This document shows, piece after piece, positions 39,453-53,130 of a stretch of 64,000 nucleotides of DNA. The stretch is from an uncultured Lachnospiraceae bacterium (GTDB lineage: Bacteria; Bacillota; Clostridia; Lachnospirales; Lachnospiraceae). Under the pieces are notes generated by a model. It did not search any database, was not told the DNA's origin, and saw only the letters and a list, made by a program, of their open reading frames with translations. Numbering within the stretch: the first letter of the stretch is position 1; the number at the start of each line of letters is the position of its first letter. The position numbers were made by a program, and so were the translations under genes. The stretch covers positions 1 to 64,000 of the forward strand of contig CADADA010000009.1 in NCBI GenBank assembly GCA_902786515.1, in the 5' to 3' direction.

Positions 39453-39524
39453 AATTGCAATTCACGACAGAAAATTGCAATTCACGACGTGAAAATTGAC
39501 AAATAGTTTCCAATAACATATGAT
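39453..39524 (+). promoter_or_regulatory. Thiopeptide cluster promoter with LytTR/ComE-like direct repeats
   Basis: AATTGCAATTCACGAC occurs at 39453-39468 and again, identical, at 39473-39488 (20-bp period). The -35 TTGACA (39496-39501), a 17-base spacer and the -10 TATGAT (39519-39524) follow. The element GCAATTCAC resembles the ComE box of streptococci (ACANTTCAG) and begins 19 bases before the -35, as at 8641. The probable activator is the LytTR protein encoded at 51456-52151. Confidence 0.75.
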
Positions 39525-39562
39525 GGTTTTGTTGATTTAACACAGAGTTAGGGAGATTAATT

Positions 39563-40504
39563 ATGGCTGTAAAAGTTGAGAATATAAGTAAACGATATAA
39601 AAAAGGTAAGCTTGCTCTTGATAATATTAGTTTTAATGTTGACGATGGAGAAGTATTCGGGTTATTAGGACCTAACGGTGCAGGTAAGTCTACTACTATG
39701 AAGATAATGACGACAATATTAAAACCTACGGATGGCAGGATATTGGTGAATGAAGAGGATTTGCAGAGTAATCCTCAAAGGATAAGAAGCAAATTCGGGT
39801 ATATTGCCCAGGACAATTCGTTGGATGAACAATTAACAGGCAGAGAGAATATACTGCTACAGTCAAGATTATATCACTTAAAGCAGTCTGAAGACAGAAC
39901 AGACGAGATTTTGAATTTAATAGATTTGGGTGAGGACATTGATATACCGGTTTCTAAATATTCTGGAGGAATGAAGAAGAGACTTGAGATAGGATGTGCG
40001 TTGATAAGTCGACCTGAGATATTGTTTCTTGATGAACCTACTTTGGGCTTGGATATTGAGGCCAGAATGGATATATGGAATTATATCAGGATGCTGAACA
40101 AATCATACAATGTAACGGTTATTGTTACTACACATTATTTGGAAGAAGCAGATGTGATTTGCGACAAAATAGCTATTATTGATAGTGGTAAGATTGTTGC
40201 GATTGGCAGTCCGAATGTATTAAAGAAAAAAGTAGGGAAAGAAAAAATAGAGATAACTTTCGAATCATTAGATGATAAAGATAAAGCTGACTCTTTTCTT
40301 AAGGATGCAGGTTATGTTGAAAATAAGCAGATTATTGATAACACTATGGTATTGATTGTAGATGATGCAGAGAGCAGAATGTTTGAGATATACGATATAC
40401 TTCGGGGCAAAGGAATCAGAATGACCGGATTGACAAATAAGAAAGTTTCACTAGATGATGTTTATTTGTATTATACGGGTCAACGTTTTGAAATTCAAAA
40501 GTAA
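39563..40504 (+). CDS. ABC exporter ATPase (DrrA/BcrA-like)
   Basis: 313 residues with Walker A GPNGAGKST, Q-loop region YIAQDNSL, signature YSGGMKKR, Walker B ILFLDEPTLGLD and switch His VTTHYLEEAD, plus a C-terminal extension of about 90 residues typical of drug/antibiotic-resistance exporters. First gene of the thiopeptide operon, 28 bases before its permease. Likely pumps out the finished thiopeptide and so gives both export and immunity. Confidence 0.9.
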   Translation: MAVKVENISKRYKKGKLALDNISFNVDDGEVFGLLGPNGAGKSTTMKIMTTILKPTDGRILVNEEDLQSNPQRIRSKFGYIAQDNSLDEQLTGRENILLQSRLYHLKQSEDRTDEILNLIDLGEDIDIPVSKYSGGMKKRLEIGCALISRPEILFLDEPTLGLDIEARMDIWNYIRMLNKSYNVTVIVTTHYLEEADVICDKIAIIDSGKIVAIGSPNVLKKKVGKEKIEITFESLDDKDKADSFLKDAGYVENKQIIDNTMVLIVDDAESRMFEIYDILRGKGIRMTGLTNKKVSLDDVYLYYTGQRFEIQK

Positions 40505-40532
40505 TACATTATGGTATATGGAGAGATAAGAA

Positions 40533-41315
40533 ATGAGTGGATATTTTTATGATGTAATTACGATATTTAATCGGGAGAAGAAGCATTTTTTAAAAAATAA
40601 GGCATCTGTATTTATGGGGGTTACACAACCGTTTCTTTGGTTTTTACTTCTTGGATACGGAATGAATGGTTTTATCGGACAAATGGGAAATACACAATCG
40701 CTGATGAATACAAAGGATTATATCACTTTTATTATGCCGGGAATAATGGCTATGACAGCAATGACCGGTGGGTTGTTTGGCGGCGCAGGAATTGTAAATG
40801 ATATCAGCAATGGCTATGTTAATAAGCTGTTAAGTGCACCTATATCAAGAAAAAGTGTAATAAGTGGAAAAATTTTATTTTCTATAATTGAAACGATGAT
40901 ACAAATACTTATTATATTTATATTATCTTTGATATTTGGAGTAAGATATAGTTTTTCTGTAAAGACTTTAGGTTCTATTGTTTTGCTGTTTTTATTTAGC
41001 GGACTTATGAGTGCTGTCGGAACGATTGTAGCAGTTAAATTAAAAACACATCAGGCAGTTTATGCTTTTTTGGGAACATTAAATGTTCCGATTTTATTTA
41101 CAAGCAATGCTTTTTTTCCGAGAGAAACAATGCCGGTGATAATGAAAGGAATATCATGGGTTAACCCATTGTCGTATGTTGTTGATGGACAACGTGATTT
41201 GTTACTAATGGTAAAGGGAAATATATTATTAGATTTTGTAGTACTGATTGTTGAAACTATGATTTTATACAAATTATCAGTTTCAGCGTTCGTTAGAGAA
41301 TATGACAGACAGTAG
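40533..41315 (+). CDS. ABC-2 type permease (DrrB-like)
   Basis: 260 residues with about six membrane segments. It contains the ABC-2 motif region PFLWFLLLGYGMNGF, a TGGLFGGAGIVNDISNGYVNKLL coupling segment and GISWVNPLSYVVDGQR near the end. Partner of the preceding ATPase. A hairpin straddles its stop codon. Confidence 0.9.
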   Translation: MSGYFYDVITIFNREKKHFLKNKASVFMGVTQPFLWFLLLGYGMNGFIGQMGNTQSLMNTKDYITFIMPGIMAMTAMTGGLFGGAGIVNDISNGYVNKLLSAPISRKSVISGKILFSIIETMIQILIIFILSLIFGVRYSFSVKTLGSIVLLFLFSGLMSAVGTIVAVKLKTHQAVYAFLGTLNVPILFTSNAFFPRETMPVIMKGISWVNPLSYVVDGQRDLLLMVKGNILLDFVVLIVETMILYKLSVSAFVREYDRQ

Positions 41316-41387
41316 GTATATTAGATATACTAATACTGTCAAGGGAGCCGAGAACAGGTATTAACAACTTGCATAAATGCAGTTGTT
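41308..41387 (+). other. Two hairpins upstream of the thiopeptide precursor gene
   Basis: First: GACAGTA (41308-41314) and GTATAT (41316-41321) pair with ATATAC (41325-41330) and TACTGTC (41334-41340), across the permease stop codon. Second: AACAACT-GCAT pairs with ATGC-AGTTGTT (41363-41387) with one bulged T. Neither has a T-run, so they are more likely processing or stability elements that isolate the precursor message. Confidence 0.55.
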
Positions 41388-41420
41388 TAAATACAAATAA
41401 TTAGAAAGGGGAACAATGAT

Positions 41421-41585
41421 ATGAATTTAGACATGAATGAGTTGAATTCTGTACTTAACGACCTAGACATCGCTGAGTTTGAGGTTGTAAGCAACGAGGT
41501 CTTATCAGAGGCAAATGAAAAGACTGTAATCGGGGCTTCCTGCACAACATGTGTATGCTCGTGCAGTAGTTGCTGCTCAGCGTAA
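41421..41585 (+). CDS. Thiopeptide precursor peptide (micrococcin/thiocillin type)
   Basis: 54 codons: ATG at 41421 with GAAAGGGG 8 bases upstream, TAA at 41583-41585. The product starts MNLDMNELNSVLNDLDIAEF; the leader of 39 residues is acidic and ends KTVIGA, and the core is SCTTCVCSCSSCCSA. The thiocillin/micrococcin core is SCTTCVCTCSCCTT, preceded by a leader ending MGA, so the first ten positions match with only Thr8 changed to Ser. Cysteines 2, 5, 7, 9, 12 and 13 would become thiazoles and several Ser/Thr would be dehydrated. An additional Ser is inserted after Ser10, and the C-terminus is Cys-Cys-Ser-Ala. It sits between the exporter and six biosynthetic genes in tcl order. The gene is easily missed because of its size. 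Confidence 0.95.
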   Translation: MNLDMNELNSVLNDLDIAEFEVVSNEVLSEANEKTVIGASCTTCVCSCSSCCSA

Positions 41586-41590
41586 TGCAG

Positions 41591-41625
41591 AAAACTCCAG
41601 GCATTATGCTTGGAGTTTTTTGGAA
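41591..41625 (+). terminator. Attenuating terminator after the precursor gene
   Basis: AAAACTCCAGGCAT (41591-41604) pairs with ATGCTTGGAGTTTT (41606-41619) with one G-U pair and a single-base loop, ending in a run of T. Placed between the precursor and the enzyme genes, it probably lets more precursor than enzyme message be made. Confidence 0.85.
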
Positions 41626-41695
41626 AAAAGCAGGTAGGAGTGAAACGACTATACTAGGGTGAGATGTTTTAATTAATAATTATGAGAGGTTTAAA

Positions 41696-42445
41696 ATGTA
41701 CGCATATTTAAAAGATAATTCTTTCTATTTAAGATTAGAAAATGACGGCTTGTTTTTAAAGAACAATTTTTCGGACATAAGTGTTTCTACACCAAAGAGC
41801 TATGATTTGTTTTTGGCATTTAAAAGGTATCTGGATGGCAAGAATGATGTCGATGTTCTTATTGAGTCTATAGAAAACCAGTGTGCTAAAAGATTTTACA
41901 GAGAATTGCTTATGGTATTAAAGGAACAGAGATTTATACTTTATGATGATAAAGAAATTGATATTTCAAAGTATACGGATTATGAAAAACAATTATTATA
42001 TTATTTCGGAAATCTAAAAGAATGGAAACAAATTGATGATGAAAACTTTTTCATTGAGATAGAAGGCCCTAATGATTATTTAGTAGAAATATTCACAAGA
42101 CTATTAGGAAATAGGATGAATATTAAGAGTCAGGTCACTGATAAGGATTATATAAGAATCAAATTACATAATGCGAAAAAAGAGATTGATAATATATATG
42201 TATATAAGAAAAAGGCAAAAAGAGAATTGCTTGTGTCAACAAATAAGCCGGTAATGAAGCAGCACGAAAGTCTGGTGAACTTGCCATTTCATATTTATGA
42301 AATAATAGGTGGATTATTGGAAATTGAAATATGGTTGATGATACATAATGCGCCTGTTGATAGCTTTTGGGATAAGGATTACGTGTTTGATTTAGATATG
42401 TTAAATGGTAAACATATTGATAAGGAGTATGAAGATGCAAGCTAA
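41696..42445 (+). CDS. RRE / Ocin-ThiF-like leader-binding partner (TclI-like)
   Basis: 249 residues. The N-terminal about 80 residues (FYLRLENDGLFLKN, TPKSYDLFLAFKRYLDGKNDVDVLIESI) fit a winged-helix RiPP recognition element that binds the leader peptide. The rest is the short E1-like scaffold without a metal or ATP site. In thiocillin clusters TclI holds this position and is required by the YcaO protein. It overlaps the YcaO start by 11 bases. The assignment rests mainly on gene order plus this pattern; overall sequence similarity is weak. Confidence 0.7.
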   Translation: MYAYLKDNSFYLRLENDGLFLKNNFSDISVSTPKSYDLFLAFKRYLDGKNDVDVLIESIENQCAKRFYRELLMVLKEQRFILYDDKEIDISKYTDYEKQLLYYFGNLKEWKQIDDENFFIEIEGPNDYLVEIFTRLLGNRMNIKSQVTDKDYIRIKLHNAKKEIDNIYVYKKKAKRELLVSTNKPVMKQHESLVNLPFHIYEIIGGLLEIEIWLMIHNAPVDSFWDKDYVFDLDMLNGKHIDKEYEDAS

Positions 42446-44189
42446 AGAACAGGGCGCAATAATTATAGATTATTTCAATAAAATACTAATTAGTTATATT
42501 GAAGGGCATAATGCTAAGGGGTGTAGAGAGTGCTTACTTAAGCGATTTATAAATACAAGAAAGGACAGGTTATACGTTAAAAACAATCAATACTATTGTC
42601 GGAATATTCAATTATATGAATCTATAGTTAGTGGAATAATTGATAAACTAAAGGACGATGACGAACTTATAGATTTAAATGGACGTAGGGCATTTTATAT
42701 ATTTGACAAATTGAATTTTTCTATAGATAGAGATTTTTTTCTCCCTGTACCAGATTGCGGGTGCTGTGGTGATTTAGAAGAAGATTCAGCGGAAGCAATG
42801 ATTAAAGTGGGTGAAAATATGATTAAAAATATTAACTGTGAAGAAAAAATTCCTTTTAGATCTAAAAAGAAAGAGGAATTATATGACAAACTGGTAAGTA
42901 CAATTTTAAGTAAAAATGTTGGTATTGTTACCACATTAATGGACAGTACAGCTGGTCCCTTGCCGTTGGCAGTTGCATTGCTGCCGGTTGAAAACGGAAA
43001 TGATGAACCTGGTTCAGGACGAATGTCCAGTATAGAGAGCAGTAGAGCAGTGGCAATGCTTGAAGCTATAGAAAGGTATGCAGGTTTTATGCCCAGAGGT
43101 AAGAAAACAATCATATATGATTCGTATAATAATCTGTATAAGACAAATAGAATTATAGATATAAAGAAAATTATTTTACATGAAGATTCTCTTTCCATGA
43201 ATTCCAAGTATGAAAATAATGTTTTTAGATTTAATTATAATCAAAATTATCATTGGGTATTTGGATACAACATTACAACGAGGGAGGCTGTATTGATACC
43301 GGAAACATTAGGATATTATGGGATGAAACTTAAGTCAGATGAATATAATAAGGAGAATTTTGTATATGAAATATCAAACGGATGCTCTGTGGGTTCTACT
43401 GTTCTTGAGTCAGCATATTATGGTGCGTTAGAGGTTATTGAACGAGATGCTTTTTTGAGTACATGGTACACGTCAAGAAAAATAAAAAAGTTGATAATAG
43501 ATACATATGCTTTTGAAGGAGGAGACAGGCTTTGTGAAGAGATAGAAAAATTCAAAGATTACTATGATGATTTTGATATTAATTTTTATGATATAACAAA
43601 CGATGTGGAGATACCTACGGTTCTCGCTACTATGAAGCGTAGACATGTAGATAAAAGGAAAATGAATTTTATGTGTGCAGCGGCAGCAGATATAGATATA
43701 GTTGCGTCTATAAATAAGTCGTTACACGAATTATCTAGTGTATATCTGGGATTTCAGGAAAAGTTTGAAACTGAATATGAGAGGATGGAGTATTTAACAA
43801 ATGATTTGTCAAATGTTGAAGATATGCTTGACCATAGTCTTGTGTATGGATATTATAAAAATTTAAATAAAATTCATTTTGATAAAAATGTTGTTAATGA
43901 AGAAAAACTTAGTGATAAGCTTAATGAAAGAAAGTATTATCTTAACACGGCATATAAAAGGTTAATTGAAAATCTAAAAAAGATAGATAAAGAAATAATT
44001 ATTGTTGATCAGACTACGGAAGAGATGCGGCATATGGGAATTTACTGCACGAAGACACTAATTCCAGGATTGCTGCCTATGACCTTTAATGCAAAGAATG
44101 TTAGAATTTCCAGGTCCAGAATAGATGAGATGCAAAAAAAACAGGATGAAGAACTGAAAGTCCGATTTTTGCCACATCCGTTTCCGTAG
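42435..44189 (+). CDS. YcaO cyclodehydratase (TclJ-like), thiazoline formation
   Basis: 584 residues from the ATG at 42435, which lies 7 bases after AAGGAG (ATGs at 42405 and 42429 are upstream of or too close to it). The YcaO ATP-binding elements are visible: SIESSRAVAMLEAIERYAG and GCSVGSTVLESAYYGALEVIERDAF, then AAAADIDIVASINKSLHEL. The last residues RFLPHPFP give the proline-rich tail needed by azoline-forming YcaOs. A CxxC pair (CGCCGD) in the N-terminal part and CRECLLKR may bind zinc. It activates backbone amides of the core with ATP so that Cys side chains cyclise. Confidence 0.93.
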   Translation: MQAKEQGAIIIDYFNKILISYIEGHNAKGCRECLLKRFINTRKDRLYVKNNQYYCRNIQLYESIVSGIIDKLKDDDELIDLNGRRAFYIFDKLNFSIDRDFFLPVPDCGCCGDLEEDSAEAMIKVGENMIKNINCEEKIPFRSKKKEELYDKLVSTILSKNVGIVTTLMDSTAGPLPLAVALLPVENGNDEPGSGRMSSIESSRAVAMLEAIERYAGFMPRGKKTIIYDSYNNLYKTNRIIDIKKIILHEDSLSMNSKYENNVFRFNYNQNYHWVFGYNITTREAVLIPETLGYYGMKLKSDEYNKENFVYEISNGCSVGSTVLESAYYGALEVIERDAFLSTWYTSRKIKKLIIDTYAFEGGDRLCEEIEKFKDYYDDFDINFYDITNDVEIPTVLATMKRRHVDKRKMNFMCAAAADIDIVASINKSLHELSSVYLGFQEKFETEYERMEYLTNDLSNVEDMLDHSLVYGYYKNLNKIHFDKNVVNEEKLSDKLNERKYYLNTAYKRLIENLKKIDKEIIIVDQTTEEMRHMGIYCTKTLIPGLLPMTFNAKNVRISRSRIDEMQKKQDEELKVRFLPHPFP

Positions 44190-44221
44190 TGTTAATTATA
44201 ATTAAAAAGAGAGGATTAATA

Positions 44222-46831
44222 GTGGATACAAGAGTAGATTATAAGGGTGAAGAAATCAGCCTATGTATTTCGCCATATAAAATTGAAAGAATATGTAATG
44301 TTTCAGAAGTTAAAAACGATGACAGCATGTTCGATTTGGTTAACATCGAAAAGGAAATTAAAGACAGGGAGGAAAGATTGGTTGAATTGCTTAGGGACGC
44401 CGACAAAAAAATTTATCAGGAGATAAGTTTGATGGATTCAGCTTTTGTGAAGCAGGCAATAAAAGCAAAGCAAAGTGTCAGTAAAAGAAGATTTAGTAAA
44501 TTAACTGATGAACAGAAAGCATTGTTTTCTGGAGAGATATTAGAATTGATAAATAAATGTCATGAGATAGATGACGATATAAATCAATTAAAAGAAAACA
44601 AAACAAGTGTGTATCTACAAAATCAAAAAAAATCAGTGGCAGCGATTCGGTCTGCTTTGAGAAGTGACAAAAATTATTATAATGGGTTAGTAATGTCTGT
44701 GTATAATGATGAGTTTTATAAAAATATTCAAGAGCTCAAATCGTACGATGATATAAAGATGAATAAGAAAAATCGTAATACTCTGTACTCTTTGAGAAAC
44801 TACTATAATAGAATGACAAGAAAACCGTCACCATTTAGTACTTTTGTATTGACGCAGGTGTTATTTACGGACAAGAGTTTAGATAGTGGACAGGAGATAT
44901 CAGGATTTTTTCATCCTAAAATATATTTGAATGAGTTGGTAGTTAAATCATTGGAAAACCAGCTTTTGAAAGATAACACCTTTATGGATGAGTTCTATAT
45001 CAAAATTAATCCGACATTGCAGGTTAATGAGAATTATTATGAGTTTTTAAATGTAGATGTACATAATGCAAAAATGTATTACAGCGAAAATGTTATTAAA
45101 GTTAAAAAAAATGCTAGAATAGATAGGTATATAGAATTATTAGCCGATGGAAAAAATCTTCATTTGTCAGATTTGGTAGCTAGAATAAAAAGGACAAGTG
45201 AAATCGAATGTGAAGATGTCAAGATCATAAAAGAAATTTTGGCACTTGATGAAGTGGGGATTTTATATAAGAATTTCAATATAAATCATCAGGATTATAA
45301 TAACATTCAGCAGATTATAAATTTGCTGGAAAAAAGACAGTATGGTCGATATAAAAATATTTCATATGCATTGAAAGATATAGTTGATAAGATAAATACC
45401 ATTAATACATTAACGGATGACATTGAATTGAAGAGGACTTTAAAGGAAAAAATATTTGATGATATAAAGATAATATTTGACAAATATCCGAAAGAAGCTT
45501 TTGATTTTGATTATGTTAAAAAGAATGTTTTATATGAAAACAATACTTTACCTGTGATAAAGCATGAAAAATTGATTAGTCAGAACATTCAAAAAAATTT
45601 TTACTTGGCAGAGAAACTGTATCGTATTTTTGACAACAATTATGTTCAAAGAATTATGTTTAGAAATATTTTTCGTAAACACCATAGCCTTGACGAAAAA
45701 GTAAACGTTTTGGATTTTTATAAGAGTGTTTCAGAAGAATATAAAAAATCAATAGAGTTGCTTTTAAAAAATGATGCTGATATAAAACAAATTGAACAAT
45801 TGCAGATTAAATTTTTAGACTTAATAAAAAGTAAAAAATCAAAAGAAAAAGATTATATCAATATTCTTGATGAAGATATTGAAGATATATATTTTGATGC
45901 TCCCAAAATCATGGATGATAAATTCAGCTATGGAGTTTATTATCAGAAAATAAATGGTGATTACGTGATTAATAATATATCTCCGGGTATGGGAAGACAT
46001 GTAATCAGATATGTTAGTGATTTATATGATGATGAGAAGAGAGAGTTTATTAAAAAATATAAAAATCATGTTAATACTATAGAAAATGACAGAATAGTAT
46101 TTACTGATATTGGAACATCTTTGGGGATTAGTATTAATAAGCATTACGAGGTGTTGAAAAAGGCCTTCGGTTATCCAAAATCAATGTATGAAAACGAGGT
46201 TAAAGCCAGTGAATTAAATGTCGTATATGATAAGAAATCGGAGGCAGTAAAGCTGGTAGACAATGAAAATGTGGTATATGAATCCACTCCGATAGGCTTC
46301 TTGTTTCCAAGAATTTCTCCGGGATTCTACAGTTTCCTTTCCACGTTCTCAAATTCAAGGGGGGCGTCTATGTCATTTTGGGATAGATATTATGATGAGA
46401 TAGAAACGAATGTGGATGATATAGTGCATTATCCTCGTATAGTAGTGAATCACAACGTGATAATAAGCCGTGAGACGTGGAAATTGAAGGGAAACATATT
46501 TAAAGATATAGAGGATACGGAGGATAGTTACGTTGTAATGATAGAGAAAATATTTGATAAAAACCATTTACCTAAGCGTTTTTTTGCCAGAAAGTCCAGT
46601 GATATAAATGCATTGAAGGAAATAGGCAAATCTACTGCTGAATGGGAAAGCATTATAACAAACAATAAGCTTCGAAAACCACAGTATTTTGACCTGAACA
46701 ACTATTTAGATTATGGAATATTTGTTTCGTTTATAAATACAAATAAAGAACTTACCGTAACAATGCAAGAAGTTTTACCGGATAGTAAAACTACGGTTGA
46801 GCATCTTATAGAAATAAACGAAATCAAATAA
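44222..46831 (+). CDS. LanB-type dehydratase, glutamylation domain (TclK-like)
   Basis: The GTG at 44222 follows AGAGAGGA by 7 bases; the longer frame start at 44189 has no site. 869 residues of the Lant_dehydr_N family, showing NRMTRKPSPFSTFVL (the RMTxRPTPFG hallmark), NISPGMGRHVIRYVSD, RISPGFYSFLSTFSNSRG and VVNHNVIISRETWKL. In thiopeptide systems this split enzyme uses Glu-tRNA to glutamylate Ser/Thr of the core; the following gene eliminates glutamate to give Dha/Dhb. The coding sequence is strongly AT-rich. Confidence 0.92.
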   Translation: MDTRVDYKGEEISLCISPYKIERICNVSEVKNDDSMFDLVNIEKEIKDREERLVELLRDADKKIYQEISLMDSAFVKQAIKAKQSVSKRRFSKLTDEQKALFSGEILELINKCHEIDDDINQLKENKTSVYLQNQKKSVAAIRSALRSDKNYYNGLVMSVYNDEFYKNIQELKSYDDIKMNKKNRNTLYSLRNYYNRMTRKPSPFSTFVLTQVLFTDKSLDSGQEISGFFHPKIYLNELVVKSLENQLLKDNTFMDEFYIKINPTLQVNENYYEFLNVDVHNAKMYYSENVIKVKKNARIDRYIELLADGKNLHLSDLVARIKRTSEIECEDVKIIKEILALDEVGILYKNFNINHQDYNNIQQIINLLEKRQYGRYKNISYALKDIVDKINTINTLTDDIELKRTLKEKIFDDIKIIFDKYPKEAFDFDYVKKNVLYENNTLPVIKHEKLISQNIQKNFYLAEKLYRIFDNNYVQRIMFRNIFRKHHSLDEKVNVLDFYKSVSEEYKKSIELLLKNDADIKQIEQLQIKFLDLIKSKKSKEKDYINILDEDIEDIYFDAPKIMDDKFSYGVYYQKINGDYVINNISPGMGRHVIRYVSDLYDDEKREFIKKYKNHVNTIENDRIVFTDIGTSLGISINKHYEVLKKAFGYPKSMYENEVKASELNVVYDKKSEAVKLVDNENVVYESTPIGFLFPRISPGFYSFLSTFSNSRGASMSFWDRYYDEIETNVDDIVHYPRIVVNHNVIISRETWKLKGNIFKDIEDTEDSYVVMIEKIFDKNHLPKRFFARKSSDINALKEIGKSTAEWESIITNNKLRKPQYFDLNNYLDYGIFVSFINTNKELTVTMQEVLPDSKTTVEHLIEINEIK

Positions 46832-46845
46832 CAAAGGGGGATTTT

Positions 46846-47721
46846 ATGAGTTGGAGAGCAATACATGTTTATTATTTTGATAATCAGGATATTATTTTGA
46901 AAAAAGATATAAAAGCGGTATTGAAAAAAAATGATATATATGAATTCTTTTTTATCAGATATTGGGAAAATGGTCCGCATATACGTCTTAGATTAAATGA
47001 TGTTGATGATTCTAAATTTCTGACAGTTATGTCAGAAGTATCGGATTGTGTTGAAAAACATAAGTCATATGTAGAAATTGATGAAAATGTATATGAAGAA
47101 GTTGCTGCAGAACTTGGTAAGAGAGAGGGGATAAAGTCAAGGTATTACCATTTGGAAAAAAATAATACCATAAAGGAATGTAAATATGAGCCTGAACTGG
47201 AAAAATATAGCGGAAAGGAAGGAGTGGCCTTAGCAGAAAAAGAATTTATATATAGCAGTAAAATAGCATTGGATATTTTGCAGTTGAATTTAAAGCAAAG
47301 TCTTAAATATATTTTTGCAGGTTTATATGCTATTGATGTTTCTTGTGCATTTTTAAAAACATTTGAAAAGAATAAAGAATTCTTTAGGCAATATACAGAA
47401 TATTGGATTGGATTCGGAGAAAATACATCTAAATCTGCGATTGACAAGTATAGGAAAAAGATTGAAGAACTTGAATTAAATATGGAAGTAACCGGTCTTA
47501 TTAAGAAATACTATGAAGGACAGAAAAATTATGATTTTCATAAAAAACTATTTAAAGATTTAAAGAATATTATAAGTGAAAAGGATATTATAAGATTTGG
47601 ATTTAATTTTGTTCATTTATTTAATAATCGTATAGGTATAGTTCCGGCTGAGGAAGCTATGATTGGAATAATTGCACTTAAGCTTATGGAGGTTATCGAT
47701 GTCAAAGAAATATATAACTAG
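46846..47721 (+). CDS. Thiopeptide-type elimination-domain protein (SpaB_C/TIGR03891; TclL-like)
   Basis: 291 residues. The start MSWRAIHVYYFDNQDIIL and FFFIRYWENGPHIRLRL are the hallmark of the thiopeptide-type bacteriocin biosynthesis domain. This domain performs glutamate elimination in split LanB systems, and a relative of it performs the [4+2] cyclisation. Position after the glutamylating protein and before a second, more diverged relative matches tclK-L-M. AAAGGGGGA precedes the ATG; it overlaps the next gene by 23 bases. Confidence 0.9.
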   Translation: MSWRAIHVYYFDNQDIILKKDIKAVLKKNDIYEFFFIRYWENGPHIRLRLNDVDDSKFLTVMSEVSDCVEKHKSYVEIDENVYEEVAAELGKREGIKSRYYHLEKNNTIKECKYEPELEKYSGKEGVALAEKEFIYSSKIALDILQLNLKQSLKYIFAGLYAIDVSCAFLKTFEKNKEFFRQYTEYWIGFGENTSKSAIDKYRKKIEELELNMEVTGLIKKYYEGQKNYDFHKKLFKDLKNIISEKDIIRFGFNFVHLFNNRIGIVPAEEAMIGIIALKLMEVIDVKEIYN

Positions 47722-48487
47722 AATTGTTACTGACGTAAATAGTATTGGTGTAAACAGTATATCATTTTGTATGCGGCTCCCGAATGAAAAAAAATTCAAA
47801 ATATATGTGGAGAATGAATCAGGACATGAAAAAATAAATTGTCTGACTCAATATATGGGGAAAAAAAGCGATGAGTTGTTTGAGAGATTTCTAGTTGATA
47901 TGAATGAAATATATTTTTACCTTATTCGCAATGAAGAAGAATTTATGAGTAATGTTATCCTTATAATGTTTTTGTTTTTAGATGTAAATAATGATGGGAA
48001 TATTATTGAGGGCGCTTATTCTTATGCTTCCCATGCGTATGGATTTTTTACTTTCTTCAACAAGAACAAAGAGATTCAGGAATACTTTGAAAATATATAT
48101 CAGAATAATAAAAAAATGGTAAAGCAGATAGCGGAACATTATGAAATGGAAAAGGAAAACTCATCTTCATTGTATCTGAAACTTAGGGAAAATGTTGACA
48201 GGTTACAGCAGAATTTAGAAGTGCATATACAAAACGGAGAAGTGTTTTTTTCGGATTATGATACAGAAAACAAGGAATTAAAGGACCTGTTGTATAAAAG
48301 CGAATTTCATAAACGTAATCGTAATAAATATAATTTTAAGGACTATTCATTTATGAAAAGAAGATTTTTAACAATCTGTGAGTATTATTTCCTTAAGAAT
48401 GTTGGTCTTACCTATGAAAAAAGATGTCTTTTGTGTTATCTGATAATTAGATATTTAGAGGAATATAAAGGTTTTAGATATAATTAG
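47699..48487 (+). CDS. Presumed pyridine synthase ([4+2] cyclase; TclM-like)
   Basis: 263 residues from the ATG at 47699 (GGAGG 9 bases upstream, inside the previous gene). It starts KKYITRIVTDVNSIGVNSISFCMRL, compatible with a diverged SpaB_C-like fold but without clear motifs. TclM/TbtD enzymes are of this size and evolve fast. They join two dehydroalanines of the core into the central pyridine and release the leader. The call depends on position (between the elimination and dehydrogenase genes, the tclL-M-N order) and on the absence of any other candidate in the cluster. Confidence 0.65.
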   Translation: MSKKYITRIVTDVNSIGVNSISFCMRLPNEKKFKIYVENESGHEKINCLTQYMGKKSDELFERFLVDMNEIYFYLIRNEEEFMSNVILIMFLFLDVNNDGNIIEGAYSYASHAYGFFTFFNKNKEIQEYFENIYQNNKKMVKQIAEHYEMEKENSSSLYLKLRENVDRLQQNLEVHIQNGEVFFSDYDTENKELKDLLYKSEFHKRNRNKYNFKDYSFMKRRFLTICEYYFLKNVGLTYEKRCLLCYLIIRYLEEYKGFRYN

Positions 48488-48499
48488 AAAGGAAATGAT

Positions 48500-49891
48500 A
48501 TGGATAATAATAAAATAAAGTGGTATGAAACAAATATAGACGAGTATCTGTTTAATACAGTATATAACCCGGATAGTCTGACTGAATTTGTTCCAAAGGA
48601 TAAGTGGTTCAAGATGAATTTATGTAGAGGAACAAGGGAAGGTCTGGCCGATTATGATATGTCGTATAATAGAGACAACATACTCAGCATGGTATTAAAA
48701 GAGGCATATGGAGAAATAGAAGTATGCAGAAATACAGTTGATAATCATGTTTACATATTTAACAGGCGTTTAGTCGCATGTGGCGGTGCATTATATCCTA
48801 ATATAGTATATGTGGTTATGGAAGAAGAGGATAGCGAAGACGTGTATCAATATATACCTGCTTTAAATGTTCTTAGGTTGATTAGAACTGAAAAAAAGAA
48901 AAAGAATAAGGTTGATGATAAATTATATTTTGTATTTACCGATTATTACTGGAGAAATTGGCCGAAGTATAAGTATTTTGGGTACAGATTAATGCTGGTT
49001 GATACGGGATACGCAATGGCTAATCTTAGTCTTGTATTATCAAGTTTGGAAATAGAATATGATTTTAAAATATCATCGGATTACAATAAAAGAATGAATG
49101 ATTTACTCGATATTAATTGCAGTTATGAGGCTGTAGAAGGTGTAATAGAGACGTCAGACCGCAGAATAATTCGAGCAGTTTCTGAATTAAAGCAGTCTGA
49201 TAAGATGTTTGAGGTAGTGGATGATTGGGATACAGAACCCATAAGTTTATATAATGTAATAGAAAAAAATGTTCTGGATGAAGAATATAACATCAGTCAG
49301 TTTGTTAGACAGGAAAAAGGCTTTGAAAGGATAAAAAGTTTTAATAGAATCTCTCCGGGGGGAGGTTTGATGATTTCACATAATCAAGTGAAAAATATTA
49401 AGATGGGGTCATTTATAAAACTTTTTGGCTATCTGAGAACCGTGTTTGATAAAATTGGAGCAGGTGTTGATATATTTGTGTATATTAATAATGTAGAAGG
49501 ATTTGAACCAGGTGGATATCAGCTTAAAGGACAAAAACTAGTTATGGTGAAACGTGTCAATAGTGATACAGACAAGTATTTAGATTTATTGTTGCGACGG
49601 AAGAATTTTAATTTGCAGGAAATACCGGTTTTGTTCTTCGTAGGAGAGAATAGGGATGAAGTTTTGAGAAAAAATGATATAAATATTTTTAAAGTGGCAA
49701 ATATTAAAGCTGGCTTTATAAGTCAGCTTATAACATATGCAATGTGTCAGAATGATTTTTGGACACATCCAATACTTGGGTACGAAGCTGATATTGCTGA
49801 AAAGATATTTGAGAGAGATGATATGTGCTTTTTGAATTTCATACCTGCTTCGGAGGTAAAACCGCTTGACAGAGAGTGTATTGGGTATTAG
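48500..49891 (+). CDS. SagB/McbC-type FMN-dependent azoline dehydrogenase (TclN-like)
   Basis: 463 residues. The nitroreductase-fold signatures are RRLVACGGALYPNIVYVVM (cf. SGGALYP), FTDYYWRNWPKYKYFGYRLMLVDTGYAMANL (cf. YxGYRYAxLDAGHxAANL) and a second half with similar but degenerate features (ISPGGGLMISHN). It oxidises thiazolines to thiazoles using FMN. Last gene of the biosynthetic run; a 140-base gap with its own promoter follows. Confidence 0.9.
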   Translation: MDNNKIKWYETNIDEYLFNTVYNPDSLTEFVPKDKWFKMNLCRGTREGLADYDMSYNRDNILSMVLKEAYGEIEVCRNTVDNHVYIFNRRLVACGGALYPNIVYVVMEEEDSEDVYQYIPALNVLRLIRTEKKKKNKVDDKLYFVFTDYYWRNWPKYKYFGYRLMLVDTGYAMANLSLVLSSLEIEYDFKISSDYNKRMNDLLDINCSYEAVEGVIETSDRRIIRAVSELKQSDKMFEVVDDWDTEPISLYNVIEKNVLDEEYNISQFVRQEKGFERIKSFNRISPGGGLMISHNQVKNIKMGSFIKLFGYLRTVFDKIGAGVDIFVYINNVEGFEPGGYQLKGQKLVMVKRVNSDTDKYLDLLLRRKNFNLQEIPVLFFVGENRDEVLRKNDINIFKVANIKAGFISQLITYAMCQNDFWTHPILGYEADIAEKIFERDDMCFLNFIPASEVKPLDRECIGY

Positions 49892-49927
49892 CAAAAACGT
49901 TTCTTGTTTAATTATACATATTGTAAC

Positions 49928-49956
49928 TTGACTAAAAAATATTTCTAAAGTATATT
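49928..49956 (+). promoter_or_regulatory. Promoter of the TipAS-like/AAA+/LytTR module
   Basis: TTGACT (49928-49933), 17 bases and TATATT (49951-49956). CTTGACT at 49927-49933 pairs with AGTCAAG at 49963-49969, an inverted repeat that spans the promoter. No copy of the 39453 direct repeat is seen here. Confidence 0.6.
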
Positions 49957-50030
49957 AAAAAAGAGTCAAGAGTCTGACAACTATAAGTGACAGTCAGCAT
50001 GAAATGACATATAGGAAGGAGTAATAAAAA

Positions 50031-50486
50031 ATGGGAAAAAAGAAGAAAAAAGGACCTTTTAAATTTTTTGAAGAAGATGTTCAAAATGAGATGCAGGAGG
50101 CCATTAAAGAAAAATTTGGAGAGAAGAAAGTTAATGAGTACAATCGTAACTTTTCATCCATGAATAAAGATGAACAGCAGCGTGTACTGGATGAATGTAA
50201 TGAGATATTTACAGAGTTGGCAAAGTACATTCATGACGACAATTATTCAGATGAAGTCAGGGAATTGCTTGTCAGATGGCACGAATGGATTAGAAACTTT
50301 TATGAACCTTCTATGGAGACTTTGAGAGGCTTAGGAGCTATGTATGCAAAGGCACCTGACTTTAGAAAAAACTTTGAAGAAATTGACCCGGATTTGCCGG
50401 ATTATTTACCAAGAGCCATAGGTGCTTATGTAGATGAGCTTGAGGAAAAATGGTTAGAAGAACAATGTAATGTTATGGAACATTGA
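50031..50486 (+). CDS. Stand-alone TipAS-like thiopeptide-binding protein
   Basis: 151 residues, all-helical and soluble, with a basic start (GKKKKKG). Residues about 89-134 align without gaps to the TipAS domain of Streptomyces TipA as I recall it: NFYEPSMETLRGLGAMY against NHYDCGYEMHTCLGEMY, then FRKNFEEIDPDLPDYLPRAI against FTRNIDAAKPGLAAYMRDAI. The upstream part (KFGEKKVNEYNRNFSSMNKDEQ...HEWI) fits the earlier TipAS helices. TipAS binds thiostrepton-class peptides. The two TipA cysteines (one of which bonds to the drug) are Pro93 and Gly100 here, so binding would be non-covalent. It has no MerR DNA-binding domain. In this cluster it is the best candidate for self-immunity by sequestration or for product sensing. 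Confidence 0.75.
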   Translation: MGKKKKKGPFKFFEEDVQNEMQEAIKEKFGEKKVNEYNRNFSSMNKDEQQRVLDECNEIFTELAKYIHDDNYSDEVRELLVRWHEWIRNFYEPSMETLRGLGAMYAKAPDFRKNFEEIDPDLPDYLPRAIGAYVDELEEKWLEEQCNVMEH

Positions 50487-50516
50487 CTATACCAGTATAA
50501 AGGGGGATGATTTAGA

Positions 50517-51413
50517 ATGGCATATACTATACCTGATACGATAGATTTAGGAAATGAAAGATATGTAAAGCCACTTCATAAAGAAAATAAAAAACCACAG
50601 GAAGCATTATTCAGCGTTGAGAGACCACGTCGTGGTTTTGACAAGCTGGTTTTACCACCTAAAACGGAGATACAGCTAAAAAGTCTTCTTACAAAGATTA
50701 AGAATTACGACCTGTTATATAATAAGTTTGGATTAAAGGAAATTGATGCAACTGGTGGAAGAACTTCTATTAATCTATATGGACCGCCTGGGACAGGAAA
50801 AAGTATGGCGGCTGAGGCTATTGCATATGAATTGGGTAAAAAAATAATAAGGGTAAACTATGCAGAGATTGAATCTAAATATGTTGGTGAGACACCAAAG
50901 AATATTAGAGCGGTTTTTAATGCAGCAAAGGAAGAGGATGCGGTTATCATTTTTGATGAGGCGGACTCAATTCTGGGTAAACGTTTATCAAATATTACAC
51001 AGAGCACGGATCATGCTGTAAATGTAAGTAAATCCGTGACACTGCTTGAGTTAGATGCATTCCCGGGCATAACTATTTTTACCACCAATTTTGGTAGTAA
51101 TTATGACGGAGCATTCGTAAGAAGAATTTTGGGACATATTAAATTTGAATTACCACACGAAGAGGGAAGAAGAAAGATACTAAAAAAGCTGATTCCGGAA
51201 AAACTTCCGCTCTCTATAAGTGAAGAAGAAGAGAATGTGATAATCGAAGAGACAGAAGGATTTTCAGGCGGAGATATGGTAAATATGGTTATTTACGCCA
51301 GCTCTTCGGCTGTCCAGCGTGATGGTGAAAAATGTAAGGTTGGCATTAGTGATTTCATGGAGGCTATAGAGATTATAAAAAATGCAAAACTGGAAATCGG
51401 CATAAATGGATAA
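50517..51413 (+). CDS. AAA+ ATPase, single-module (FtsH/Vps4-like class)
   Basis: 298 residues: Walker A GPPGTGKS (89-96), pore-loop region ESKYVGETPKNI, Walker B IIFDEADS (Asp147, Glu148), sensor-1 Asn191 in FTTNFGSN, an arginine pair at 202-203 for the Arg finger and a sensor-2 GFSGGDMV. There is an N-terminal extension of about 80 residues and no protease domain. AGGGGGATG precedes the ATG, 30 bases after the TipAS-like gene. Possible roles are remodelling thiopeptide-bound ribosomes, handling the TipAS-like protein, or assembly of the synthetase. I know of no such ATPase in characterised thiopeptide clusters. Confidence 0.85.
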   Translation: MAYTIPDTIDLGNERYVKPLHKENKKPQEALFSVERPRRGFDKLVLPPKTEIQLKSLLTKIKNYDLLYNKFGLKEIDATGGRTSINLYGPPGTGKSMAAEAIAYELGKKIIRVNYAEIESKYVGETPKNIRAVFNAAKEEDAVIIFDEADSILGKRLSNITQSTDHAVNVSKSVTLLELDAFPGITIFTTNFGSNYDGAFVRRILGHIKFELPHEEGRRKILKKLIPEKLPLSISEEEENVIIEETEGFSGGDMVNMVIYASSSAVQRDGEKCKVGISDFMEAIEIIKNAKLEIGING

Positions 51414-51455
51414 TTTTTAGTCATACCATTTATGTATACGTGAGGTGAGATAAAA

Positions 51456-52151
51456 ATGATAAGAATTGGGATTTGTGATGATGAGGATATTTTTCGGGAG
51501 AATTTGAGAAACATTATCCGTAAATATACAGATGAAAACAGGATAACAGTGGAGCTTTCAGAATATGATGATGGAATCAATTTTATAGAGAGCGGTGATA
51601 AAGTTGATGTTTTATTTCTGAATGTTGAAATGAAAACAATGTCCGGTATAGAAGTAAAAAATACATTAGCAATGAACAGAGAGGATACAATCATTGTATT
51701 CACCACAGCTTATTCAAAATACACAAAAGATATGATAGGTCGGAATGTATATTATTGTTTGGAAAAACCTGTAAAGACAGATGAGGTATATCATATATTG
51801 GATAACCTGTTTTCTGCACTTCATGAAAATACAAAGATTGAGGTAGAGGAAGCAGGGAAAATATATCTCCTTGATTACAGGAAGATAAAATATATCATTG
51901 CGGAAGACAAATACACAAGAATATACACCGAAAACAAAAAGTACTTATTACGGAAGAAAATGAAGTATTGGAAAGAAATACTTCCTAAAGAACTATTTTG
52001 CGAGATTAATCGTTCTACAATTGTATCCTTTGCTCATTTTGAAAGAAAGGCAGGTGGTGTAAAACTGGATAATGGTAATATAGCAAAATTTAGCCGGAAA
52101 CATAAAAATGAAATAATGGAAAATTATAAGCAATATTTGAGGACACTATAA
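51456..52151 (+). CDS. LytTR regulator with Asp-to-Asn degenerate receiver
   Basis: 231 residues. The receiver domain keeps the acidic pair (CDDED), the Thr (VFTTAY) and the Lys (EKPV), but the phospho-acceptor in VLFLNVEMKTMSG is Asn56 instead of Asp. The LytTR domain is intact (IKYIIAEDKYTRIYTENKKYLLRKKM, FCEINRSTIVSFAHFE). GAGGTGAG precedes the ATG. No histidine kinase is near. I infer phosphorylation-independent control of the cluster, through the direct repeats at 39453-39488, perhaps answering to the TipAS-like protein or the peptide itself. Confidence 0.88.
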   Translation: MIRIGICDDEDIFRENLRNIIRKYTDENRITVELSEYDDGINFIESGDKVDVLFLNVEMKTMSGIEVKNTLAMNREDTIIVFTTAYSKYTKDMIGRNVYYCLEKPVKTDEVYHILDNLFSALHENTKIEVEEAGKIYLLDYRKIKYIIAEDKYTRIYTENKKYLLRKKMKYWKEILPKELFCEINRSTIVSFAHFERKAGGVKLDNGNIAKFSRKHKNEIMENYKQYLRTL

Positions 52152-52238: not shown

Positions 52239-52733
52239 TTGATTATTATCATACAAAAATGTAAGATTTTTGCTGTGCAAAAGATAAATTATGATGATAA
52301 TATAGCAAGAGCAATAAGATATGCTGTTTCAAATGGAGCTAAAGTTATCAATTTGAGTCTGGGGTGCTATGCTCCCGATGAACAAGTGTTGGTTGATGCT
52401 ATTGAGGAAGCATATGCAGCAGGAGTGACTGTTGTAGCATCAGCTGGAAATTCTGGAAAAAATACGAACATAGAAAGACACTATCAATCTTCAGAAGAAC
52501 ATGTTATTTCGGTTATGTTTACAAATCCGGATAATACTAGAAATTATCAGTCTAATTATGGGAAAATATATAATGATATTTGTGCACCGGGACATAATAT
52601 ATTTACGACAGATATTAACAATAATTATAATCCTGAGGCAGGAGGGTCGTCGATGGCTGCACCGATAGTATCAGCTGTTGTAACAATGATGAAGGGTGTT
52701 AAATGTCAGAGCAGTATACAAAAGTTAGGATAA
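52239..52733 (+). pseudogene. 5'-truncated subtilase (S8) remnant
   Basis: The frame opens at a TTG with no ribosome site. It contains the second half of a subtilisin: IARAIRYAVSNGAKVINLSLG, the oxyanion Asn in VVASAGNSG and the Ser motif GGSSMAAPIVSAVV. The Asp and His regions are absent, so no active protease can be made. The C-terminus is also cut short. It is not obviously part of the thiopeptide cluster; a former leader peptidase cannot be excluded. Confidence 0.7.
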
Positions 52734-52890
52734 AATAGTTGTAAAAAGTGTGAATATTTACACTGGATGCAAATTAAGAAGTAATCATCTAAGCACGTAT
52801 AATAAATTATATTATTTGGCCTTTTGCTTGTATTTTATTTCATGAAGATTACGAACGGTAGTTAATAAATAATTTTATATGTTAAGATAG

Positions 52891-52935
52891 TAATAGATAA
52901 AGAAAATGAAATTTTCTTTATCTATTATTTTATTT
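52891..52935 (+). terminator. Strong terminator closing the thiopeptide region
   Basis: TAATAGATAAAGAAAAT (52891-52907) pairs perfectly with ATTTTCTTTATCTATTA (52911-52927), then TTTTATTT. The 157 bases before it (52734-52890) contain nothing I recognise. Confidence 0.85.
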
Positions 52936-53130
52936 GCACGCCATGGGCGCGCTCTAACGGGTGCTAGTCCCGAACATGCCCAGGTAGTGGGGGTTGAGTA
53001 TGTCTTGTGTTGCAAAGATGACAACATCTGCCGTAACCAATTGGATCAAAGAGTACATAGGAATGCTGGAACTGAAAAAGAGTATACTTTTTTAGGGTTG
53101 CAGATGGTTGGTCGTATGGATTGAGATATC
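52936..53130 (+). other. Possible group II intron 5' fragment (domain I-like RNA)
   Basis: An abrupt GC-rich block starts right after the terminator: GCACGCCATGGGCGCGCTCT, AACGGGTGCTAGTCCCGAAC, ATGCCCAGGTAGTGGG. CATGGGCG/CGCCATG and CGGGTGCTAGTCCCG give compact paired elements like those near the 5' end of bacterial group II introns (cf. GGTGAAAGTCCC). No reverse transcriptase and no domain V are present, so at most a truncated remnant. From 53131 to 53290 I see no feature. Confidence 0.4.

Follow-up and report, generated by a model that had tools for sequence, protein, structure and literature searches.

In the 64,000 nucleotides of DNA analysed here, which we call the window, an unbroken run of open reading frames (ORFs) on the plus strand between positions 39453 and 52151 makes up what we regard with good confidence as an intact chromosomal thiopeptide cluster of the lactocillin/micrococcin lineage, with an extra serine in the precursor core, a six-thiazole pyridine macrocycle as the predicted product and a TipAS-AAA gene pair that likely serves self-protection. 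All frames of the cluster are open and the biosynthetic genes follow the tclI-N order, as seen in the ORF list and the family scans. The precursor gene (41421..41585) encodes 54 residues with the C-terminal core SCTTCVCSCSSCCSA. It is followed by the genes for a TclI-type RRE protein, the predicted presenter of the precursor (41696..42445), a TclJ-type YcaO cyclodehydratase with a PHPFP C-terminus (42405..44189), a TclK-type LanB glutamylation protein (44189..46831), a TclL-type elimination protein (46846..47721), a TclM-type [4+2] pyridine synthase (47699..48487) and a TclN-type SagB-like azoline dehydrogenase (48500..49891). An earlier note on this DNA had described a complete micrococcin/thiocillin-type cluster: The genes that it named are present and intact, in the order that it gave and with a DrrAB exporter in front, and the TclO, TclP and TclS tailoring genes are absent as it had stated, with no such methyltransferase or short-chain dehydrogenase in the ORF list (by eye and by family scans). 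Its type assignment can be kept in part: The cluster is of thiopeptide type and belongs to the micrococcin/lactocillin lineage of Bacillota, but its nearest named relative is found on a plasmid of Lactobacillus paragasseri JV-V03, its core is one residue longer, and a TipAS-AAA pair probably protects the producer instead of a copy of ribosomal protein L11.

The features of the thiopeptide class are all found at the locus: a Cys/Ser/Thr-rich core starting at Ser, a YcaO protein with a leader-binding partner, a split LanB and a [4+2] pyridine synthase. The thiopeptide rule quoted in the excerpted text of PMC13289728 likewise asks for a YcaO gene close to a Lant_dehydr domain. The YcaO, Lant_dehydr_N and TIGR03891 assignments, whose failure would have refuted the earlier note, all pass curated cut-offs: The YcaO protein, the only one found in this genome of 3.23 Mb and 108 contigs, scores 194 bits with PF02624 (cut-off 25.7) and 247 with TIGR03604 (cut-off 219), the TclK-type protein 39.8 bits with PF04738 Lant_dehydr_N (cut-off 28), and the TclL-type protein 117 bits with PF14028 Lant_dehydr_C (cut-off 24.4) and 74 with TIGR03891 (cut-off 48). 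The TclK-type protein is 33% identical to its counterpart on the JV-V03 plasmid; its start codon is uncertain, as the similarity to the second carrier described below starts at residue 12. The RRE partner was assigned by similarity rather than by family: no family or domain model exceeded its cut-off in the family scans, but the protein matches the JV-V03 plasmid counterpart with 27.8% identity over 234 aligned positions (E 1e-26). Its structural model, built from two sequences, is too weak for a fold search (mean predicted local distance difference test score (pLDDT) 52); its N-terminal part is predicted to consist of three strands and then three helices, which we take to be the RRE order.

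What the earlier note had listed as a second small protein is present in the position given there, and its identity can now be supplied. This protein of 262 residues has no Pfam match, and its sequence matches TbtD in the PDB weakly (E 0.029). An AlphaFold2 model based on 10 sequences (mean pLDDT 75, with residues 1-46 below 50) was searched against the PDB: PbtD, TbtD, TsrL and [4+2] aza-cyclase chains fill the first 12 places, each with a probability of 1.00, and the 13th match has a probability of 0.06. The best match is PbtD (E 1.8e-4); TsrL is presumably the pyridine synthase of thiostrepton. The protein is 32% identical to the corresponding JV-V03 plasmid protein, and for the dehydrogenase this value is 28% (E 1e-46). 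Several scores count against the assignment of the cluster. Among the 12 fold matches, a single one is below E 0.001, and the pyridine synthase reaches 73 bits with NF045556, below the equivalog cut-off of 325. The precursor stays just below the cut-off of NF033401 (35.8 bits, cut-off 37.5) and below that of TIGR03892 (17.4, cut-off 25), the dehydrogenase below that of TIGR03605 (70.2 bits, cut-off 78.4), and the two exporter proteins below those of their subfamily models (DrrA, TIGR01188, 305 bits, cut-off 312; DrrB, TIGR01247, 125, cut-off 223).

The core has 15 residues, with Ser at position 8, an added Ser at position 11 and an SA end. It has one Ser more than that of micrococcin, and the 14-residue SCTTCVCTCSCCTT-kind core of the micrococcin/thiocillin subgroup is not matched. 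The precursor search gave nine precursors including the window's own, and the extra Ser is present in all nine: S1, C2, T3, T4, C5, C7, C9, S10, S11, C12 and C13 are kept throughout, and positions 6, 8, 14 and 15 vary. In the second carrier, L007, the core is identical although nine of its 15 codons differ, and the dN/dS ratio (nonsynonymous to synonymous divergence) of the precursor is 0.03. These codon differences without any change of residue, the low dN/dS and the retention in nine of nine precursors indicate that the extra Ser has been conserved and is no artefact of sequencing. The variant is not entirely without precedent, since residue exchanges and insertions have been noted previously for the mature peptides of Listeria monocytogenes and Streptococcus pseudoporcinus (PMC11832629, in the sections available). 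A stem-loop with a T run lies 3' of the precursor gene on the same strand (41588..41622; -22.8 kcal/mol, z -5.9); one of 200 shuffles was as good, and the same stem-loop is found in L007, although the pattern scan did not list it. It is likely an attenuator that yields more precursor than enzyme. Promoter-like sites occur near chance level (88 found, 75 expected, standard deviation 9.3).

L007 is a contig of a metagenome-assembled genome deposited as uncultured Lachnospira sp. and the sole locus that came from the contig scan with the pyridine synthase; we take it to be the YcaO-bearing contig of G398, a genome of the window's genus. It agrees with the window in gene order, in the core and in the flanking genes. 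Three sister genomes lack the cluster: In two of them, the flanking genes for a DUF4097 protein and a MacB-type permease are only 108 and 79 bases apart, and in the third, the same genes are separated by 4.5 kb that contain ORFs which look, by eye, like ABC exporters and regulators. This comparison places the island edges near 39.4 and 53.6 kb, in agreement with the extent of 39453 to 52151 assigned in the earlier note. As the flanks adjoin or are differently filled in the sister genomes, the cluster occupies one variable chromosomal site that includes the genes for the DrrA-type ABC exporter ATPase, likely the product exporter (39563..40504; PF00005 and PF13732 above cut-off, 75% identity in L007), the DrrB-type permease (40533..41315; PF01061 above cut-off, 87%), the TipAS domain, the AAA+ ATPase and a LytTR response regulator, possibly the regulator of the cluster (51456..52151; PF00072 and PF04397 above cut-off, 88%). 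The G+C content is 0.29-0.33 over 40-50 kb as compared to 0.36-0.40 over 30-40 kb. Between the two carriers, purifying selection has acted on the cluster genes: dN/dS is 0.03-0.25 for all 12 of them and lowest for the precursor, TipAS and AAA genes. Synonymous divergence is 0.95-1.35 for the precursor and enzyme genes and 1.20 for the flanking DUF4097 gene, and due to this resemblance the cluster probably dates back to the divergence of its two carriers. The AAA and LytTR genes differ from the others here: their synonymous divergence is only 0.54 and 0.43 as compared to 0.95-1.91 for the other cluster genes; these two genes may have a different history with a later exchange. Two side observations concern the site itself. 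The 4.5-kb insert of the third sister genome (G339; L050 4214-8743) stands at the place of the cluster, and the site looks variable. At the island edge, the short stretch 52875-53027 contains an inverted repeat (52884-52934) and recurs in several near copies, both elsewhere in the genome, on other contigs, and in sister genomes; it is a small dispersed repeat.

The earlier note did not account for the genes between 50031 and 51413. They encode a stand-alone TipAS domain (50031..50486; PF07739, 91 bits, cut-off 23.8), likely a drug-binding self-immunity protein, and its partner, an AAA+ ATPase (50517..51413; PF00004 above cut-off) with Walker A and B motifs and a KYVG pore-loop-like motif. The TipAS protein is 92% identical in L007 and 43% identical to the TipAS protein of the JV-V03 plasmid; for the AAA protein, the identity to the JV-V03 protein is 63% and to the next best plasmid record 47.5%. 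In a profile search, TipAS is present and L11 absent in the window, in L007 and in the JV-V03 plasmid stretches, and the reverse holds for the clusters of Staphylococcus hominis, Macrococcoides and another genome of the family (G104). The extra L11 gene of micrococcin/thiocillin clusters is absent, as the earlier note had stated: none was found in 36-56 kb of the window, and the single rplK gene of the genome lies on contig C32. The PAPPVGPALGQHG stretch of this L11 protein is the same as in the chromosomal L11 of all 11 other genomes compared, so there is no change at that stretch; the two cluster-borne L11 copies that were aligned lack it. We reject resistance by an altered or second L11 protein on the basis of the single rplK gene and its usual PAPPVGPALGQHG stretch. 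The TipAS protein of Streptomyces lividans binds thiopeptides covalently via a cysteine (PMC7762955, in the portion available). Its stretch YDCGYEMHTCLG aligns to YEPSMETLRGLG in the window and to YTPSIEVMRGLS in the plasmid protein, and both Cys are missing, so that binding would be non-covalent.

The pairing of TipAS and AAA genes goes with thiopeptide clusters within the loci surveyed. In the family sample, TipAS matches occur in 19 of 378 genomes, the window's own included; 17 of the 18 others are in frames of at least 249 residues, as expected of MerR-type regulators, and one is in a frame of 146 residues. None of these 18 loci has an AAA gene beside TipAS within about 1.5 kb on each side. 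Conversely, AAA relatives at E 1e-40 were found in six other genomes of 397 (34-44% identity), and none of the six has TipAS beside it in the same range. A pair that is common in the family is ruled out by these counts. The two plasmid AAA relatives that were inspected (of 119 records) have different neighbours and no TipAS pairing, and besides the JV-V03 plasmid, the TipAS search of all plasmid records returned nothing but a MerR-type regulator of Legionella. Among the papers brought up by searches of an open library, including PMC2893106 and PMC3917276, none was found to describe such a TipAS-AAA pair. The 146-residue TipAS frame (L084, genome G212, C9 29690-30073) has no AAA gene in the fetched flanks. 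The best match of the AAA+ ATPase in a defence library is IetA (106 bits), which pairs with a subtilase in an anti-phage system; a truncated S8 subtilase (52239-52733, profile positions 82-254 of 288) lies downstream of the IetA-like AAA gene. It is not at the same place in L007, and elsewhere in G398 (C6) there is a 75% DNA match to this stretch.

The extra Ser implies a 26-membered ring with a dehydroalanine (Dha) spacer, which we prefer, or a 29-membered ring. In pyridine formation, the second Ser is converted to Dha, and the reacting unit takes in the carbonyl of the preceding residue, normally an azole. The ring letters are the same as those of micrococcin at nine of ten positions, and Cys9 precedes Ser10, an azole-Dha pattern of the kind that the lactazole pyridine synthase reads (PMC7210931). 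With closure at Ser10, which we consider fairly probable from the core sequence, Cys9 would provide the azole, the 26-membered ring of micrococcin would be formed, and Ser11 would become the Dha that links the pyridine to the bis-thiazole. We favour this closure because the ring letters are retained and no azole chemistry of a new kind is required. If the ring closed between Ser1 and Ser11, the macrocycle would have 29 members, Ser10 would be an oxazole or a Dha in the ring, and the pyridine-bis-thiazole tail of micrococcin would be kept; this is a real possibility that nevertheless falls short of being probable. Ser11 is followed by Cys-Cys, like the ring Ser of micrococcin and of the JV-V03 plasmid core, and as an invariant second Ser in all nine precursors it fits this closure as well; the sequence cannot show ring size. 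However, closure at Ser11 requires a Ser-to-oxazole step or a Dha that replaces the azole; the YcaO relatives act on Cys, so that an oxazole is not expected. A precedent exists in lactazole, which closes at Ser12 with an oxazole preceding at position 11, and whose pyridine synthase reads an azole-Dha pattern with oxazole11-Dha12 as the minimal motif (PMC7210931, seen in part). On the other hand, the EF-Tu-binding 29-membered thiopeptides retain a ring Asn, and the window core has none; the same source also ties tipA induction to a Dha-containing tail near the central ring (PMC3917276, as excerpted), which we count in favour of the 26-membered ring. Against this stands the JV-V03 plasmid core, in which neither Ser nor Thr follows the ring even though TipAS is present, so that TipAS is not coupled to a tail Dha there. 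In a mass calculation, [M+H]+ is 1199.187 with six thiazoles, the pyridine and three further dehydrations and 1197.171 with six thiazoles, one oxazole, the pyridine and two further dehydrations, so that the oxazole case differs from the Dha cases by 2.016, and the two Dha cases are equal in mass. When two further dehydrations and decarboxylation of the tail are added, this calculation yields the formula given for micrococcin P1 in PMC8878052.

For the TipAS-AAA pair, producer self-immunity is the likely role, as judged from its sequence and its place in the cluster. It is conjecture that the AAA+ ATPase unloads, refolds or degrades drug-bound TipAS. The small basis of the L11/TipAS contrast, six loci in all, speaks against self-immunity, as does the occurrence of AAA relatives beside other genes, both within the family and on the two inspected plasmids. 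It is also conceivable, though unlikely, that TipAS acts as a sensor in control of the cluster, and that drug-bound TipAS reports the product level with the help of the AAA ATPase and the LytTR regulator: TipAS domains are the sensor domains of MerR regulators (PMC7762955, partial text), as reflected by the long frames of nearly all other matches in the family, and the LytTR gene comes after the AAA gene. However, the window TipAS lacks a DNA-binding domain, the TipAS-AAA pair is retained in the JV-V03 cluster with no LytTR gene annotated in the fetched plasmid stretches, and no L11 copy or other immunity gene was recognised in the cluster. Finally, the edge near 52.2-53.6 kb, with its truncated S8 peptidase and dispersed repeat, might be taken to mean that the whole cluster is a silent or decaying remnant without a product, for example of an assembled mixture. 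We regard this as very improbable, since all frames are open, the dN/dS values are low against a carrier whose synonymous divergence is close to 1, and L007 and the sister genomes have the same flanks. Taken further, self-immunity and the extra Ser lead to a tentative and on the whole doubtful proposal of a thiopeptide subfamily of Bacillota: the inserted Ser would give a 29-membered ring or a tail hung on a Dha and would thus uncouple ring size or tail from the ring sequence, and immunity would be of a new kind, a non-covalent TipAS trap that is reset by its own AAA+ ATPase.

With closure at Ser10, the preferred reading, biosynthesis may proceed as follows. The RRE protein would present the precursor, the YcaO protein and the dehydrogenase would convert six Cys to thiazoles, and the split LanB pair would dehydrate Ser and Thr via glutamylation. 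The pyridine synthase would then join Ser1 to Ser10 and expel the leader, and no protease would be needed for this reason. The predicted product has a 26-membered ring, the Ser11 Dha spacer, a bis-thiazole tail and a free C-terminal Ala, with [M+H]+ at about 1199.19. It is predicted to bind the L11/23S GTPase centre of the ribosome and would be exported by DrrAB; TipAS would bind residual drug non-covalently, and the AAA+ ATPase would unload or renew TipAS. The size of the macrocycle is regarded as decisive for the target, with 26-membered rings acting on the L11/23S centre and 29-membered rings on EF-Tu (PMC3917276, where accessible). A natural core that nearly keeps the ring letters of micrococcin and adds one residue makes this rule directly testable. 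Likewise, the TipAS-AAA pair, which accompanies thiopeptide clusters of two distinct kinds and stands where other clusters carry a copy of L11, is a candidate form of self-protection that can be put to the test.

A search of about 5.8 billion proteins with the pyridine synthase gave five matches including itself, the others being 70, 68, 54 and 50% identical, and a profile search with eight pyridine synthases returned 10 proteins, none of them with a Streptococcus name. In the window's genus, two of five genomes have the YcaO gene and three lack it. Among the 397 genomes of the family sample, a YcaO match at E 1e-30 occurs in four (the window's own, G104, G131 and G254) and a pyridine synthase match at 0.001 in two (the window's own and G104). 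In the phylum sample, three of 398 genomes have a YcaO match at 1e-50, again with the window's own among them, and the other two are 32-33% identical. G104, from another genus of the family, has a second thiopeptide cluster, which is micrococcin-type (L025 7277-18371 and L026 322-3850), with the core SCTTCTCTCSCCTT and its own L11 copy nearby; by eye, an IS66-type-looking element lies between its YcaO and dehydratase genes. A phage home of the cluster is ruled out, as no phage record matches the YcaO protein. On plasmids, all 36 records with YcaO relatives are less than 60% identical; the best is the JV-V03 plasmid with 46% over 595 aligned positions.

The cluster is set apart by its extra-Ser core, the TipAS-AAA pair in the place of L11 and a relative of Lachnospira as the host. 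The actinomycete clusters of lactazole and of GE2270/thiomuracin (PbtD, TbtD) have other cores and ring sizes; what they have in common with the window is the fold of the pyridine synthase and, in lactazole, a run of Ser before the ring Ser. In the same family as the window, a predicted thiopeptide cluster of Lachnospiraceae UBA3401 was reported in 2024 and proposed to act on Clostridioides difficile (PMC11352710, partial text); if made, the product of the window would similarly be a compound of Lachnospira relatives that acts on Gram-positive neighbours. UBA3401 belongs to another genus (COE1), and its forward primer is unmatched with up to two mismatches in all five genomes of the window's genus, so that we set the two clusters apart by genus and primer, the primer result being suggestive only since no positive-control genome was included. 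Of the papers that our searches brought up, PMC11352710, PMC13289728 and PMC11832629 among them, none was seen to treat the Lachnospira-type clusters. At the level of the precursor, the window resembles Streptococcus pseudoporcinus, for which a micrococcin-like operon is described in strain NCTC5385 (PMC11832629, as far as available): the precursor P0013 of this species, one of the nine from the precursor search, has the extra-Ser core SCTTCVCTCSSCCSA. The micrococcin-type plasmids of S. hominis S34-1 and Macrococcoides caseolyticum (pBac115) encode the same I-J-K-L-M-N enzymes, and their cores also start with SCTTCVC, but the core is SCTTCVCTCSCCTT, an L11 gene takes the place of the TipAS-AAA pair, and there are extra short-chain dehydrogenase/reductase genes; the YcaO proteins are 39% (452 positions) and 34% identical to that of the window, respectively. 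As judged from sequence, the closest named cluster is that of the L. paragasseri JV-V03 plasmid (NZ_CP040501), which we take to be lactocillin, ahead of the S. hominis plasmid. The two differ in several respects: the JV-V03 plasmid is mobilizable, its core SCTTCTCCCSCCA lacks the extra Ser, it has no DrrAB genes directly before the precursor, and genes for an AMP-binding protein and an alpha/beta-hydrolase lie between N and TipAS (L004 14565-16926), for which there is neither an ORF nor room between 49891 and 50031 of the window. In both, the order is precursor-I-J-K-L-M-N, and in both, the dehydrogenase gene that ends this series is followed by the genes for TipAS and the AAA protein in a cluster without an L11 gene, which is absent from the whole JV-V03 plasmid.

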